Assembly (NCBI GenBank): GCA_024275565.1
Contig: JAJRYY010000178.1
Coordinates: forward strand, 1-50,283
Source of the DNA: Planctomycetota bacterium
GTDB lineage: Bacteria; Planctomycetota; Phycisphaerae; UBA1845
Reading direction: 5' to 3'
Length of the DNA: 50,283 nucleotides
Below, piece after piece: positions 5,504 through 50,052 of this stretch. Below the pieces are notes generated by a model. The model saw only the letters and a program-made list of their open reading frames with translations, had not been told where the DNA came from and did no database searches. A program made the translations under genes and the position numbers. How positions within the stretch are numbered: the stretch's first letter is position 1; every line of letters starts with the position of its first letter.

Positions 5504-6478
5504 CTAAACTACGCCAGCCAATGGTTGCGGGACGGTCGCCTGGATTTCTTCTACCATTGATGAGAATTTCCTCAGTACATCATTTACAGATTTTTGTTCT
5601 GCTTCGCTCAGGTTCTTCTTCCATTTGTTGCGGGTGGAACTGTCCATCTGCTCGGGGACTGCCTGTAAATCCACATCCGTCACGCCCCCAAATTCCGCGA
5701 TCCGAGAGACGACGCCTCGCGGGTCGTCGCAGAAGTCGTGGTAATGGATGGTCATTTTCATATCGTCTGGTGTGTCGCGTAAATCTGTGACGATCATATG
5801 GTTCAATCGTACCCAGGACTCCGGAATTCTGGCAAAGCCTTCGCCCGGATAGTATCGCGACGCGTCTGTGTGCTCCTGGTGAAAGGCTTTCGTATCTGCA
5901 TGCTCGAGGCAGCCGGGCATGAGGCGTGGGCGTTTGATGAGTCCGCCGAGTCGCTTTCGGGGTGCATAGTTCGGAAGGTTGTCTGGATCGACGGGAATGA
6001 CGGACCAGCAGGGTCGCTCGCAGTCTGGCCAATAGGAGTGGAAGGGGACTTCGTAATGCGGATCTGCCTTGAGTGCGGATTGCATGACGAGTTTTGTGCT
6101 TGCGGCTGTGCCGTGACAGTCTCGTATGATGTGTATGATTTTTGCGTTCGGGAGCATCGCGCGTACGAATGAGGTTTTGTTTGCCAGGTGCGGACACTTG
6201 CTGACGATGTGTTTTCCTGTGCTGGTGCGATTTGCGACATATTCCGCGATGCGTTTTTTCAATTCAGGCGTTGCGTCGTCGGCGGTTGCCCCCTTGCAGT
6301 ATGTTCCGCTTTTGGCGCTTCCCATCCAGCATCCGAACTGCTGCCAGAATGTACGGGCTTCGAAATCCAGGTCGTCAAAATCGATTGACGACCGATAAGC
6401 GTCCCGCAGGGTATCGGCCAATATCGTTGTTCCTGATCTGATACAGCCGATGCAAATGATTGGTGCTGGTGTTGACAT
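5504..6478 (-). CDS. Sulfotransferase family protein 1
   Basis: A predicted PAPS-dependent sulfotransferase of 324 residues. The 5'-phosphosulfate-binding loop is CIGCIRSGTTILADTL near the N-terminus. The 3'-phosphate-binding element is KIIHIIRDCHGTAAS about 115 residues later, the usual order and spacing. I chose the ATG at 6478 because GGAG sits 8 nt upstream and the P-loop should be close to the N-terminus. The frame allows earlier starts up to 6526 (TTG). Likely role: adding sulfate to the polysaccharide made by the locus. A glycolipid acceptor is possible. Confidence 0.82.
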   Translation of the reverse strand: MSTPAPIICIGCIRSGTTILADTLRDAYRSSIDFDDLDFEARTFWQQFGCWMGSAKSGTYCKGATADDATPELKKRIAEYVANRTSTGKHIVSKCPHLANKTSFVRAMLPNAKIIHIIRDCHGTAASTKLVMQSALKADPHYEVPFHSYWPDCERPCWSVIPVDPDNLPNYAPRKRLGGLIKRPRLMPGCLEHADTKAFHQEHTDASRYYPGEGFARIPESWVRLNHMIVTDLRDTPDDMKMTIHYHDFCDDPRGVVSRIAEFGGVTDVDLQAVPEQMDSSTRNKWKKNLSEAEQKSVNDVLRKFSSMVEEIQATVPQPLAGVV

Positions 6479-6556
6479 CACAGATGCTCCATACACTATC
6501 CGTCCGTAGTTCATACGATCTTCCAAGGTACTATCGTCACGATCGGTGGTGCGACG

Positions 6557-45526: not shown

Positions 45527-45793
45527 GCCTGACGTCTCCTCGATGAACCGCTTCCCGGATGCCTTACTCTGATGAATCGCCTTATTCCAATGAATCCTCG
45601 CAGACCACCAACATACACAGACCACCCCCAAACCGGGGCAGGCAATCGCGCGAGTCGTGAATTATGTCCACCACGACCCCATGCGTCAACCCCACACCAA
45701 ATCTGGACTCAACCGCAGGATTCGGGTCCAATGGCGGTCCGTGCGAGCAAAAGAACCGAAACAATACAGAAATCCAACCCGGAGGACCCCGAA

Positions 45794-46375
45794 ATGTATC
45801 TCCCAGATGTCCAGAACGCAGAAGGCGACCCCTACGGCGAGACCATTCGCCAGTGTCGAGCGGCTGGCATGCCGGTCCCCGAGCTTGCCAACCTCCTCGC
45901 ATTCAAACCCGAACGCAACCAGTTCCTGTCACGCTTCACACACGAGGTCTTGCGCGGACCATCACCCCTCTCCACCGGGCTGCGAGAACTCATAGCAGCC
46001 TTCGTCTCACGCCGCAACGAGTGCTTGTTCTGAACCGGTTCTCACGCCGCGGTCGCGGCTGAACTCCTCCAGAATCGCACCATGGTCGACGCCGTACTCG
46101 AAGACCACACATCCGCAGACATCGACGAGAAAGACCGCGCCCTCTTCACACTCGTCGCCATCGCCACAGACGACCCCACAAAGGTGAAACAGGCAGACAT
46201 CGACGCAGCCAAGTCAACGGGCTGGACGGATGAAGCGATCTATGACGCCATCACCGTCTGCGCACTGTTCAAATTCTTCAACACATGGGCAGACGCAACG
46301 GGCGTAGCCGACCTCCCAGCCGCAATGTACGAAATGTCAGGAAAACGACTGGCAGCCGGCGGATACGCGAGCTGA
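45794..46375 (+). CDS. AhpD-like/carboxymuconolactone-decarboxylase-family selenoprotein (in-frame UGA)
   Basis: A 193-residue AhpD-like peroxidase-related protein. It starts at ATG with GGAGGA 7 nt upstream. Codon 80 is TGA (46031-46033), and the same frame continues without shift to 46375. The motif across the TGA is C77-L-F-U80-T-G-S-H84, which matches the family's redox motif CxxCxxxH with the second cysteine replaced by selenocysteine. Sequence on both sides belongs to the family: RELIAAFVSRRNE before; AAVAAELLQNR and ALFTLVAIATDDPTKV after. A hairpin with G residues at the front of its loop starts 3 nt past the TGA, as expected for a bacterial SECIS. Predicted role: thiol/selenol-dependent peroxide reduction. 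A TGC-to-TGA mutation or error is the alternative. Confidence 0.87.
46037..46065 (+). promoter_or_regulatory. Candidate bacterial SECIS element
   Basis: The lower stem ggttc (46037-46041) pairs with gaact (46061-46065, one G-U pair). An asymmetric internal loop tcac/t follows. The upper stem gccgc (46046-46050) pairs with gcggc (46055-46059) across a ggtc apical loop. The loop guanines lie 18-19 nt after the UGA, matching the distance and the G-in-loop rule for SelB recognition in bacteria. Fold drawn by eye. Confidence 0.7.
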
Positions 46376-46593: not shown

Positions 46594-46599
46594 TATAAT
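46594..46599 (+). promoter_or_regulatory. Candidate -10 box for the Gly/His-rich gene
   Basis: A consensus TATAAT lies 71 nt before the ATG at 46670, in the 294-bp gap after the selenoprotein. The -35 region is poor (TTATCG or AACATC, depending on spacing), so this is tentative. Confidence 0.4.
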
Positions 46600-46669
46600 G
46601 GATTGCGTCACGGAGCAGGCGTTGGGAAATAAATGTTCCAGCAGCAGTTGTCCAGAATGGAGGTGCATC

Positions 46670-48385
46670 ATGAGGCTGAGATCGAGGTTCAACACATCAC
46701 TCACCATCGTCTCAACATTCGCATTCCTCCTCTCGGGGGCAACACCCGCCTACGCACAACATGGCGGCGGCGGACATGGTGGCGGTGGCGGACACCGCGG
46801 AGGCGGACACAGTGGCGGCGGCGGGCATCGCGGAGGCGGGGGTCACATCGGCGGCGGATCGCGCGGTGGACACGCATCATCCAGCATAGGACGCAGCCGC
46901 TCAGGAACGCGCAGCCACTCCATTGGTAGAAGTTTCACAGGGCGTTCCCGAGGAAGCAGATCGCACAGCAACGCCAGTCGCGGAATCAGCCGTGGACACA
47001 ACCAGACAAGTCGCAGATCCAGCGGAATCAGCAGAGGCCACAGTGCTGGCACCAGAGGACACAGTGCTGGTAGCAGAGGACACAGTGGAACAAGCCGTGG
47101 GTACGGTACAGGCAACCGTGGTCGCGCCGGGCATTCCGGGTCTGGTTCTTCAATCCGAAACCTGGGATACAATTCACTCGGACGAGGCGGGCATGCTGGT
47201 TCCAGCGGTCGAATCAGTACAGGACATTCCGGGTACAGCACAGGACGTTCAGGGTACAACGCAGGACACTCAGGGTACAACGCAGGACACTCAGGAAACA
47301 GCACCGGGCACTCAGGGTACGGGTCTTCCCTCCGAAGCGGCAGCCACAGTTCACCGGGACGAAGCAGTTCACTGGGACGAGGCGGGCATAGCAATGCCAC
47401 AGGAGGGGGTCATCAGTTCGCTTCACGCGGCGGCGGCGGGCATGCAGGCTCGGGCGGACATAGCTCATCGTTCGGAGGTGGACATGGTTCATCGTTCGGC
47501 GGCGGACATAGCTCATCGTTCGGCGGCGGGCATAGCTCATCGTTCGGAGGCGCTTCGCACGGCTACGGGTCCGGACAGGGATACAGCATAGGTCACAGCT
47601 CCGGCATCGGGCACAGTTCCGGCATAGGACACAGCTCAAGCATAGGCCACGGTTCAAGCATAGGGCACAGCTCAAGCATCGGTCACGGTCTAAGCCATTC
47701 CGCCGGATCGGGCATCAGCCATTCCTCCAGCATAGGTCTCGGACATGGTGGTTACGGCCTGGGACACAACACTTACGGCCTGGGTCACAGCGGTTACGGA
47801 CTGGGGCACAGCGGTTACGGACTGGGGCACAGCTACGGTTCGTACGGATTCGGACACGATTACGGCTACGGCGGATATGGCCTCGGACACGGTTACGGGT
47901 ACGGCGGATACGGCCTCGGTCATGGCTACGGTTACGGGCACTATGGTGATTACTACGGAGGATTCGGCATAGGCCTCTACGCCGGATATGGGGTCTACGA
48001 TCCATGGTACTACGGTTCGTATTCGAGCTTTGGATACGCACCCTACGGATATGGATACGATTCTCAGACCTACTACGACAACTCATACACATACGCCCCG
48101 GTCATCATCAACGACGACGAAGAAGAGGACGAAATCGATCGCATCTCCTACCGCAGAATTGTCCCACAACCCCAGACATCTCAATACCAGCATCAGCACG
48201 AAACCGACGATCCCTCGAACCGCAGCAGGTTCATCCAGACCCCACGAATCATCCGTCCGGAAGGCGCACCCGAAGTCCTGCCGCCTCTGAACGAGGACAA
48301 CGCACCAGACCATTCCCACGACCATGGCAGCAACAATTCAAATGAAACGCAACCGACGCCCACCAGACAGGCAACACCAGCATGA
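46670..48385 (+). CDS. Secreted Gly/Ser/His/Tyr-rich repeat protein
   Basis: 571 residues from the ATG at 46670, with GGAGG 6 nt upstream. A Sec signal peptide (LTIVSTFAFLLSGATPAYA) is cleaved before QHGG. The mature protein is low-complexity in zones: Gly/His-rich (GGGGHRGGG), Gly/Ser/Arg (RGHSAGSRGHSG), GHSGYNAGHSGYN, SSFGGGHSSSFGGGH, then GIGHSSSIGHGSS and GYGLGHSGYGLGH. A Tyr-rich section (YDPWYYGSYSSFGYAPYGYG) and an acidic DDEEEDE tail follow. No catalytic domain is visible. Regular histidines could bind metal, and Tyr/Gly blocks could form adhesive or silk-like assemblies; both are inference. It overlaps the next gene as ATGA, so the pair is co-translated. Confidence 0.82.
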   Translation: MRLRSRFNTSLTIVSTFAFLLSGATPAYAQHGGGGHGGGGGHRGGGHSGGGGHRGGGGHIGGGSRGGHASSSIGRSRSGTRSHSIGRSFTGRSRGSRSHSNASRGISRGHNQTSRRSSGISRGHSAGTRGHSAGSRGHSGTSRGYGTGNRGRAGHSGSGSSIRNLGYNSLGRGGHAGSSGRISTGHSGYSTGRSGYNAGHSGYNAGHSGNSTGHSGYGSSLRSGSHSSPGRSSSLGRGGHSNATGGGHQFASRGGGGHAGSGGHSSSFGGGHGSSFGGGHSSSFGGGHSSSFGGASHGYGSGQGYSIGHSSGIGHSSGIGHSSSIGHGSSIGHSSSIGHGLSHSAGSGISHSSSIGLGHGGYGLGHNTYGLGHSGYGLGHSGYGLGHSYGSYGFGHDYGYGGYGLGHGYGYGGYGLGHGYGYGHYGDYYGGFGIGLYAGYGVYDPWYYGSYSSFGYAPYGYGYDSQTYYDNSYTYAPVIINDDEEEDEIDRISYRRIVPQPQTSQYQHQHETDDPSNRSRFIQTPRIIRPEGAPEVLPPLNEDNAPDHSHDHGSNNSNETQPTPTRQATPA

Positions 48386-50052
48386 AATGCACAAACGGAC
48401 GCAGATCCAAAGAGCATGGTTCCAATGGGCACGGCCTCAAAAGGCGTGAACGCCGACTAAAACGGGACGTCCTCATCACGCTCATTCTCCTGCCAGTAAC
48501 ACTCCTGGGCTGCCGGTCCGCAAACCAGAACCACGATCAACTCATTACAAGTCCGCCCCCCACCCTGCCGGAAGTCGCACTCGTAGCCTTCTCTGATGAC
48601 AACACCCCCCCTGACAACACCAGCTCAGACAACACCAGCTCAGACAACAAGCAAAACCACCCCTCCGATCCACCCGCTACTCACCCGTCCCCTGCAACGC
48701 AGACATCCACCATGCAACAGGCTGCCGAGATCATCGCAGACGACATCACAATGCGTGCAGCGCTCAGTCACGCAAATTTCACCCGGTCCATCCCCGACCA
48801 CCTCATACTCAAGGTCGATCTCAGCGCAGCCTCCACAACCCCACGCACACGAAAACCACTCAACCTCGCACTCGTCTTCGACCGCTCAGGGTCGATGGCA
48901 GACGATCGAAAATTCAACCACGCCATGCGAGCAGCAAACATCGTCTTCGAAAACCTCTCAGACCACGACATCGTCTCGCTCATAGCATTCAACCAAAAAC
49001 CCTCAGTCCTCTCTCCAGCAGGACGCGCGGTCAACAAGGATTTCCTAAGGTTCCGACTCCGACAGTTCGGACCAACAGGAGACACAAACCTCAGTGCAGC
49101 CATCCTCGAAGCATTCGCACAGATCGAAAGCAAAAACGCCGAAGGGCAGATGAAACGCGTCATCCTCCTCACAGACGGACTCGCAAATCGCGGAATCACT
49201 GACCCCGAAAAGCTCCGGAAACTCGTCGCAGCAGCACACGAACGGGGTATCGGCGTATCAACACTGGGCTGCGGAACAGAATTCAGCGAAGAAGTACTTT
49301 CCAGTCTCGCAAAAGCGGGCGGAGGACGTTACACCTACGTCCGCTCCGGAGAACAGATCCCAACAGCAGTATCAGCCGAGCTGAACGGACTACTCGATGT
49401 CCTCGCCCAAAACGCCAAAATTGACGTCCGCGCAACCGCAGGAGCAAGCATCACACGCGTATACGGACGCTTCCTCACCACCCCGACACCGTCCTATTCA
49501 TTCGAACTGGGAGACATGCGCGACGGAGAACGGGGTTCCTTCTTACTGGAGCTGACACCAGGATCGTTTGACACAGATTCATCAGCCGGCGCAGACATCA
49601 CCATAACCCTCGACAACCCCGAAACCGGCAAGCGAAACAAATACACCATCCATGCCGAATCCACATTCACCGCAAACCCAGAAGACGCCAGAAGCAGCAC
49701 AAACAAAAACGTACAGGTCTACGCAAATATAATCAACGCAATGGAAAAAGCAGAGGAAGCCATACAAGGCAGAGACATCCAGCGCTTCAAGGAAGCCCAT
49801 GATTTATTCGGACGCTACTACGAAATTGCACGCAAACACGCCATACAAACACGCGACCAGCAGTTGTTGAATCAGACTTTCCTGCTCAGACACTTCATGG
49901 CAGACCTCTCGGATGCAAGTGCCCAAACCCCAATGCACGGACACGACGACGCACAAAAGCAGCTACGCAAAGGCGCAGACTACAGGCGATACCTCCTCGA
50001 ACACCACCGACCCCAACCAGCACCACAACAACCGCACCAGCCACAACCGTAG
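48382..50052 (+). CDS. VWA-domain lipoprotein
   Basis: 556 residues. A basic N-terminus and hydrophobic stretch end in the lipobox VTLLGC (lipidated Cys44), followed by a Pro/Asp/Asn/Thr-rich linker with DNTSS repeats. A von Willebrand A domain spans about 155-345 with an intact MIDAS: DRSGSM (Asp167, Ser169, Ser171), Thr235 in GDTNLS and Asp265 in LTDG. A beta-rich region follows, then a helical C-terminus (AMEKAEEAIQGRDIQRFKEA) and a Pro/Gln/His-rich end. Such proteins bind partners or substrates at the cell surface in a metal-dependent way. The ATG overlaps the stop of the Gly/His-rich protein, which is the obvious partner candidate. Confidence 0.9.
   Translation: MKCTNGRRSKEHGSNGHGLKRRERRLKRDVLITLILLPVTLLGCRSANQNHDQLITSPPPTLPEVALVAFSDDNTPPDNTSSDNTSSDNKQNHPSDPPATHPSPATQTSTMQQAAEIIADDITMRAALSHANFTRSIPDHLILKVDLSAASTTPRTRKPLNLALVFDRSGSMADDRKFNHAMRAANIVFENLSDHDIVSLIAFNQKPSVLSPAGRAVNKDFLRFRLRQFGPTGDTNLSAAILEAFAQIESKNAEGQMKRVILLTDGLANRGITDPEKLRKLVAAAHERGIGVSTLGCGTEFSEEVLSSLAKAGGGRYTYVRSGEQIPTAVSAELNGLLDVLAQNAKIDVRATAGASITRVYGRFLTTPTPSYSFELGDMRDGERGSFLLELTPGSFDTDSSAGADITITLDNPETGKRNKYTIHAESTFTANPEDARSSTNKNVQVYANIINAMEKAEEAIQGRDIQRFKEAHDLFGRYYEIARKHAIQTRDQQLLNQTFLLRHFMADLSDASAQTPMHGHDDAQKQLRKGADYRRYLLEHHRPQPAPQQPHQPQP

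Follow-up and report, generated by a model that had tools for sequence, protein, structure and literature searches.

An AhpD-like gene with an in-frame TGA at its redox motif in a Planctomycetota genome, a probable CxxU selenoprotein

Introduction

Can two adjacent reading frames, each half of an AhpD/CMD-family protein and separated by a single TGA, be one intact gene? The question is raised by positions 45794-46375 (plus strand) of a 50,283-nucleotide contig, analysed here over its whole length as the window. It belongs to a Planctomycetota draft genome (G000) of 4.40 Mb in 236 contigs that is 95% complete. The first-pass annotation of this DNA had proposed that the split-looking gene is probably a selenoprotein with CxxU in place of CxxC and had pointed out that AhpD-like selenoproteins are already known in other bacteria. 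The latter point agrees with the literature. In the Sargasso Sea set, selenoproteins of the AhpD-like CxxU kind were described (PMC1088965), and this kind has been catalogued since 2005. The Global Ocean Sampling (GOS) set contains the AhpD-like 1 and AhpD-like 2 selenoproteins (PMC2398784), and a 2026 review lists an "AhpD-like protein, TIGR01926, CxxU" (PMC13188914).

Results

Reading frame and protein family

The frame at 45794-46375 is interrupted by a single TGA (46031-46033); its translation has 193 residues, with this TGA at position 80. A second TGA forms the stop, and both ends of the gene agree with those of the orthologues. The sequence GGAGG is present at 45781-45785, 8 nt 5' of the ATG, and may function as a ribosome-binding site. 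The read-through translation was matched by the Pfam model PF02627 with 44.9 bits (cut-off 23) and by TIGR01926 (peroxidase-related) with 98.7 bits (cut-off 81.8), and both matched stretches crossed the TGA. The homology is continuous across the TGA, and the two half-AhpD frames make up one CMD/AhpD protein, as the first-pass annotation had proposed.

The motif of the protein reads RELIAAFVSRRNE-C77-LF-U80-TGS-H84, with the codon of Cys77, the first residue of CxxU, at 46022-46024 and the TGA at the second cysteine of C-x-x-C. Frame and alignment thus agreed with the earlier placement of the TGA exactly at the second Cys of the family redox motif (Cys-Leu-Phe-TGA-Thr-Gly-Ser-His). The site spacing was that of TIGR01926 and the CMD family, a Glu followed by Cys-x-x-Cys/Sec at +12 and by His at a further +4. 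By alignment Glu65 (45986-45988), 12 residues ahead of the first Cys, is the equivalent of the proton-relay Glu of AhpD, and His84 (46043-46045), four residues after Sec80, was invariant.

Selenocysteine and cysteine at position 80

Orthologues with 56-60% identity were found in two genomes of the same family (G042 and G031), in Pyxidicoccus caerfyrddinensis and Citreicoccus inhibens, and in one Gemmatimonadales genome. All of these carried TGA at the exact codon of Sec80. In the Acidobacteriota orthologues (49% and about 41% identity) the same codon was TGC or TGT. More distant paralogues from the same order, with motifs such as CHYU, CYYU and CLYU, also had TGA at the Sec position. Over 39 aligned rows of orthologues and paralogues, minus-strand loci included, position 80 was Sec in 33 and Cys in 6, and no other residue was seen, as expected from the first-pass annotation.

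Two CMD genes were found in the source genome, each with an in-frame TGA: the window gene and one on contig C155 (23804-24223; locus L077:4568-5248). The second gene is AhpD-like with 137.6 bits to TIGR01926, and its single TGA is at the same CxxU position.

In a draft of so many contigs in which selC was not found (see below), an ordinary CxxC AhpD-like gene broken by an early stop codon or a wrong base call might be suspected. However, TGA occupies the same codon in independently sequenced genomes from at least two other phyla as well as in many further relatives, conservation of the residues on the 3' side of the TGA is as good as on its 5' side, and besides the window gene the one CMD gene found in the genome likewise has a single TGA at this point of the motif. 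The recurrence of the same-codon TGA in several phyla refutes a pseudogene or sequencing error for the gene as a class, and we consider either very improbable for the copy in the window.

The hairpin 3' of the TGA

A candidate apical hairpin of a bacterial SECIS is present at 46046-46059, with the layout 5'-UGA, 12 nt, GCCGC-GGUC-GCGGC; the loop GGUC spans 46051-46054. Counting from the first nucleotide after the TGA, the two guanines of the loop (46051-46052) are nucleotides 18 and 19, as had been noted earlier. The folding energy was unremarkable when taken alone (z = -1.65, with 12 of 200 shuffles as good), and 10% of synonymous recodings folded equally well.

Comparison between orthologues gave a different picture from the energy. 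Codons +5 to +8 (GCC GCG GTC GCG) were identical at the nucleotide level across six Sec orthologues in 4 of 4 cases, compared to an invariant codon in only 1 of 41 amino-acid-invariant four- or six-fold columns elsewhere in the gene (Fisher p=3.4e-5, a value that rests on six related Sec orthologues and serves as a guide only). The same 14-nt hairpin was found in the three members from the order, in Myxococcota and in Gemmatimonadota, with the protein diverged to about 57% identity. In the Cys orthologue L064 the loop reads CGUC instead of GGUC and the stem is mismatched, and the remaining Cys orthologues have not kept the hairpin. It is thus the comparative evidence, not the energy, that places the hairpin above chance, and the SECIS-like hairpin of the first-pass annotation stands on conservation in Sec orthologues together with absence in Cys orthologues.

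In L034, a diverged Sec relative with ~39% identity, both partners of the second stem pair have changed (C-G to G-U) with the stem kept, and the encoded residues are altered from A to G and from A to S. Only one such event was seen, and its count was equalled in 66 of 500 shuffles. The two-sided change supports, but does not prove, pairing in the hairpin.

In the CHYU-type paralogues a different hairpin lies more distant from the UGA, by about 8 nt compared with the window gene; its loop is often the same GGUC, and a change from C-G to T-A was seen in two members with a full stem. At these positions the CHYU-type hairpin was absent in L050, L052, L053, L055 and L058, and their SECIS would therefore lie elsewhere or be of another form.

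Distribution of the CxFU subclade

In the tree the window gene fell within a CxFU subclade that is split from the CHYU-type paralogues. Close orthologues were present in 3 of 114 genomes of the order, namely this one, G031 and G042. The Gemmatimonadales copy adjoined these three CxFU copies, and the Myxococcota copies were placed near. Such a patchy distribution fits horizontal spread of the gene, although ancient and patchy retention would be an alternative. When viral contigs were searched for relatives of the window protein, none were found. A more far-reaching reading, which we hold only tentatively and regard as rather unlikely, is that the CxFU gene travels between phyla together with its own decoding hairpin, the hairpin being a recoding module that is portable and is maintained across phyla through its recognition by SelB.

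Selenocysteine machinery of the genome

The first-pass annotation had predicted that this genome encodes a selenocysteine machinery, and this was borne out for the three protein genes. On contig C91 selB (349 bits including the neighbouring stretch) adjoins selA (551 bits), and selD (369 bits) is located on contig C180. The tRNA-Sec gene, selC, was not found in the draft, though it is present in close relatives.

The selD frame (L020:1531 on C180) itself contains an in-frame TGA, within YASCAGU-AGKLP, at the position of the catalytic Cys in other SelD proteins. SelD, which makes the selenium donor, thus seems to be a further selenoprotein of this genome. Its TGA is followed by a hairpin, CGCGCAG-GTT-CTGCGCG.

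When the genome was searched for tRNA-Sec with the Rfam model RF01852, only other tRNAs (Ser, Leu, Cys and Trp) were retrieved, all below the cut-off. A search with the 95-nt tRNA-Sec of a relative and a T-arm pattern returned only a Thr tRNA, a Cys tRNA and chance pieces. In the window, ARAGORN called a 99-nt "tRNA-Ser (tga)" at 6031-6129, which was considered as a misread tRNA-Sec; it is without Rfam support and lies antisense in a sulfotransferase gene (5504-6526), and it is probably false.

Among 30 genomes searched, the source genome included, 24 had a tRNA-Sec over the cut-off. The gene was present in each of G031, G042 and G037, the carriers of the nearest family homologues, and ARAGORN gave the anticodon TCA in 13 of 13 tRNA-Sec loci checked in relatives. 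As selC and selAB showed no linkage in the relatives examined and tRNA-Sec is present there, the simple reading is that selC of the source genome was lost in an assembly gap, and we infer that the genome has this gene.

The missing selC could also mean that the gene has been lost from the organism, so that translation mostly halts at the TGA and the window gene is decaying or poorly decoded. This would account for its absence from the assembly, but selA, selB and selD are intact, the SelD of this genome itself requires Sec decoding, the assembly reaches only 95% completeness, and selC is present in the nearest members of the family; we therefore find such a loss highly unlikely. A selenium-free, genome-wide reading of TGA as Trp or another amino acid would explain the in-frame read-through but can be practically dismissed, since the window gene stops at a TGA (46373-46375) with homologues ending at about the same place, the internal site is Cys in homologues and never Trp, TGAs within genes were found only at redox or catalytic positions (the two AhpD-like genes and SelD), and in the genes looked at none was seen at a Trp site.

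Taken together, Sec/Cys exchange at position 80, conservation of the hairpin and the presence of selA, selB and selD support a selenoprotein with CxxU rather than a split gene, selC being the gap in this evidence. We conclude that the window gene is almost certainly an intact gene for a SelB-decoded selenoprotein, with insertion of Sec in vivo inferred from these comparisons.

Predicted structure and genomic neighbourhood

An AF2 model calculated from a six-row alignment (pLDDT 79.7) showed an all-helical AhpD fold. Foldseek matched it with probability 1.00 to 3C1L, 6K40 and 2PRR (TM about 0.66-0.69), and the solved peroxidase-related proteins 3C1L, 6K40, 2PRR, 2PFX and 2OYO matched the window protein by both structure and sequence. 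The rmsd of the model to these proteins was high overall (about 10 A), with parts differently placed. Against the PA0269-type AhpD it was 2.2-2.6 A across about 140 columns. In the AhpD of M. tuberculosis the relay residues are Glu118, Cys130, Cys133 and His137 (PMC3141380), to which Glu65, Cys77, Sec80 and His84 of the window protein correspond with the same spacing.

Upstream of the gene are an exopolysaccharide cluster and wecB, and downstream a VWA gene. The cluster is large (2220-38366, minus strand) and contains two asparagine synthases, several glycosyltransferases, a Wzy_C ligase, sugar dehydrogenases, polysaccharide export, Bac_transf and heparinase II/III-like genes. A frame of 595 amino acids at 46598-48385, without a Pfam or NCBIfam match, overlaps the VWA-domain gene (48382-50052) by 4 nt. 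No ahpC, whose product AhpD proper reduces as an adaptor, was detected among the neighbouring genes scanned, and no shared gene was found in the neighbourhoods of the Sec orthologue loci.

Discussion

We propose that SelB and Sec-tRNA would decode the UGA at 46031 as selenocysteine, directed by the GGUC-loop hairpin that begins 12 nt 3' of it. The product would be a 193-residue, all-helical protein of the CMD/AhpD fold and of the TIGR01926 "peroxidase-related" kind, with Cys77/Sec80 as the redox pair and Glu65 and His84 as putative proton-relay residues. Because the fold matches and the AhpD relay residues correspond, we suggest a thiol/selenol peroxidase or reductase in which Sec80 is the nucleophile, and hydroperoxides or protein disulfides would most likely be reduced. 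From what is known of the family, we consider a peroxidase or reductase role reasonably likely.

With the known TIGR01926 AhpD-like CxxU proteins (PMC1088965, PMC13188914) the window gene shares the NCBIfam family, the CxxU position and a SECIS-like hairpin with a loop G, but it differs in belonging to the distinct CxFU subclade and in the position of its hairpin, which is nearer to the UGA by about 8 nt. With the GOS AhpD-like 2 (pfam02627, PMC2398784) it has in common the Pfam CMD family, CxxU and known Cys homologues, whereas it comes from another environment and lineage. The alkylhydroperoxidase-related (seleno)protein family NF041238 (AhpD_rel_CFYUT) has a homologous AhpD core and C-x-x-U (CFYUT), but the window protein is a non-member, scoring 53 bits against an equivalog cut-off of 175 and aligning only to the C-terminal third of the 357-position model. 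The solved structures 2PFX, 6K40, 2OYO, 3C1L and 2PRR share the family and the CxxC site by sequence and the fold by structure; they have Cys where the window protein has Sec, and the identity is about 25%. The AhpD-like CxxU kind is thus already catalogued, the window gene adds another member and its novelty is low. Novelty could at most lie in the reading of the CxFU subclade as a cross-phylum module.

Standard gene callers would break both the window gene and the second CMD gene of this genome into truncated pieces. In the sampled genomes of the order nearly all closer relatives among the matches listed have TGA, and therefore annotation that is unaware of Sec would miss most of the order's peroxidase-related proteins. 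The set of Sec and Cys orthologues, together with a hairpin conserved at synonymous sites, offers a clean natural experiment on how bacterial SECIS elements are recognised.
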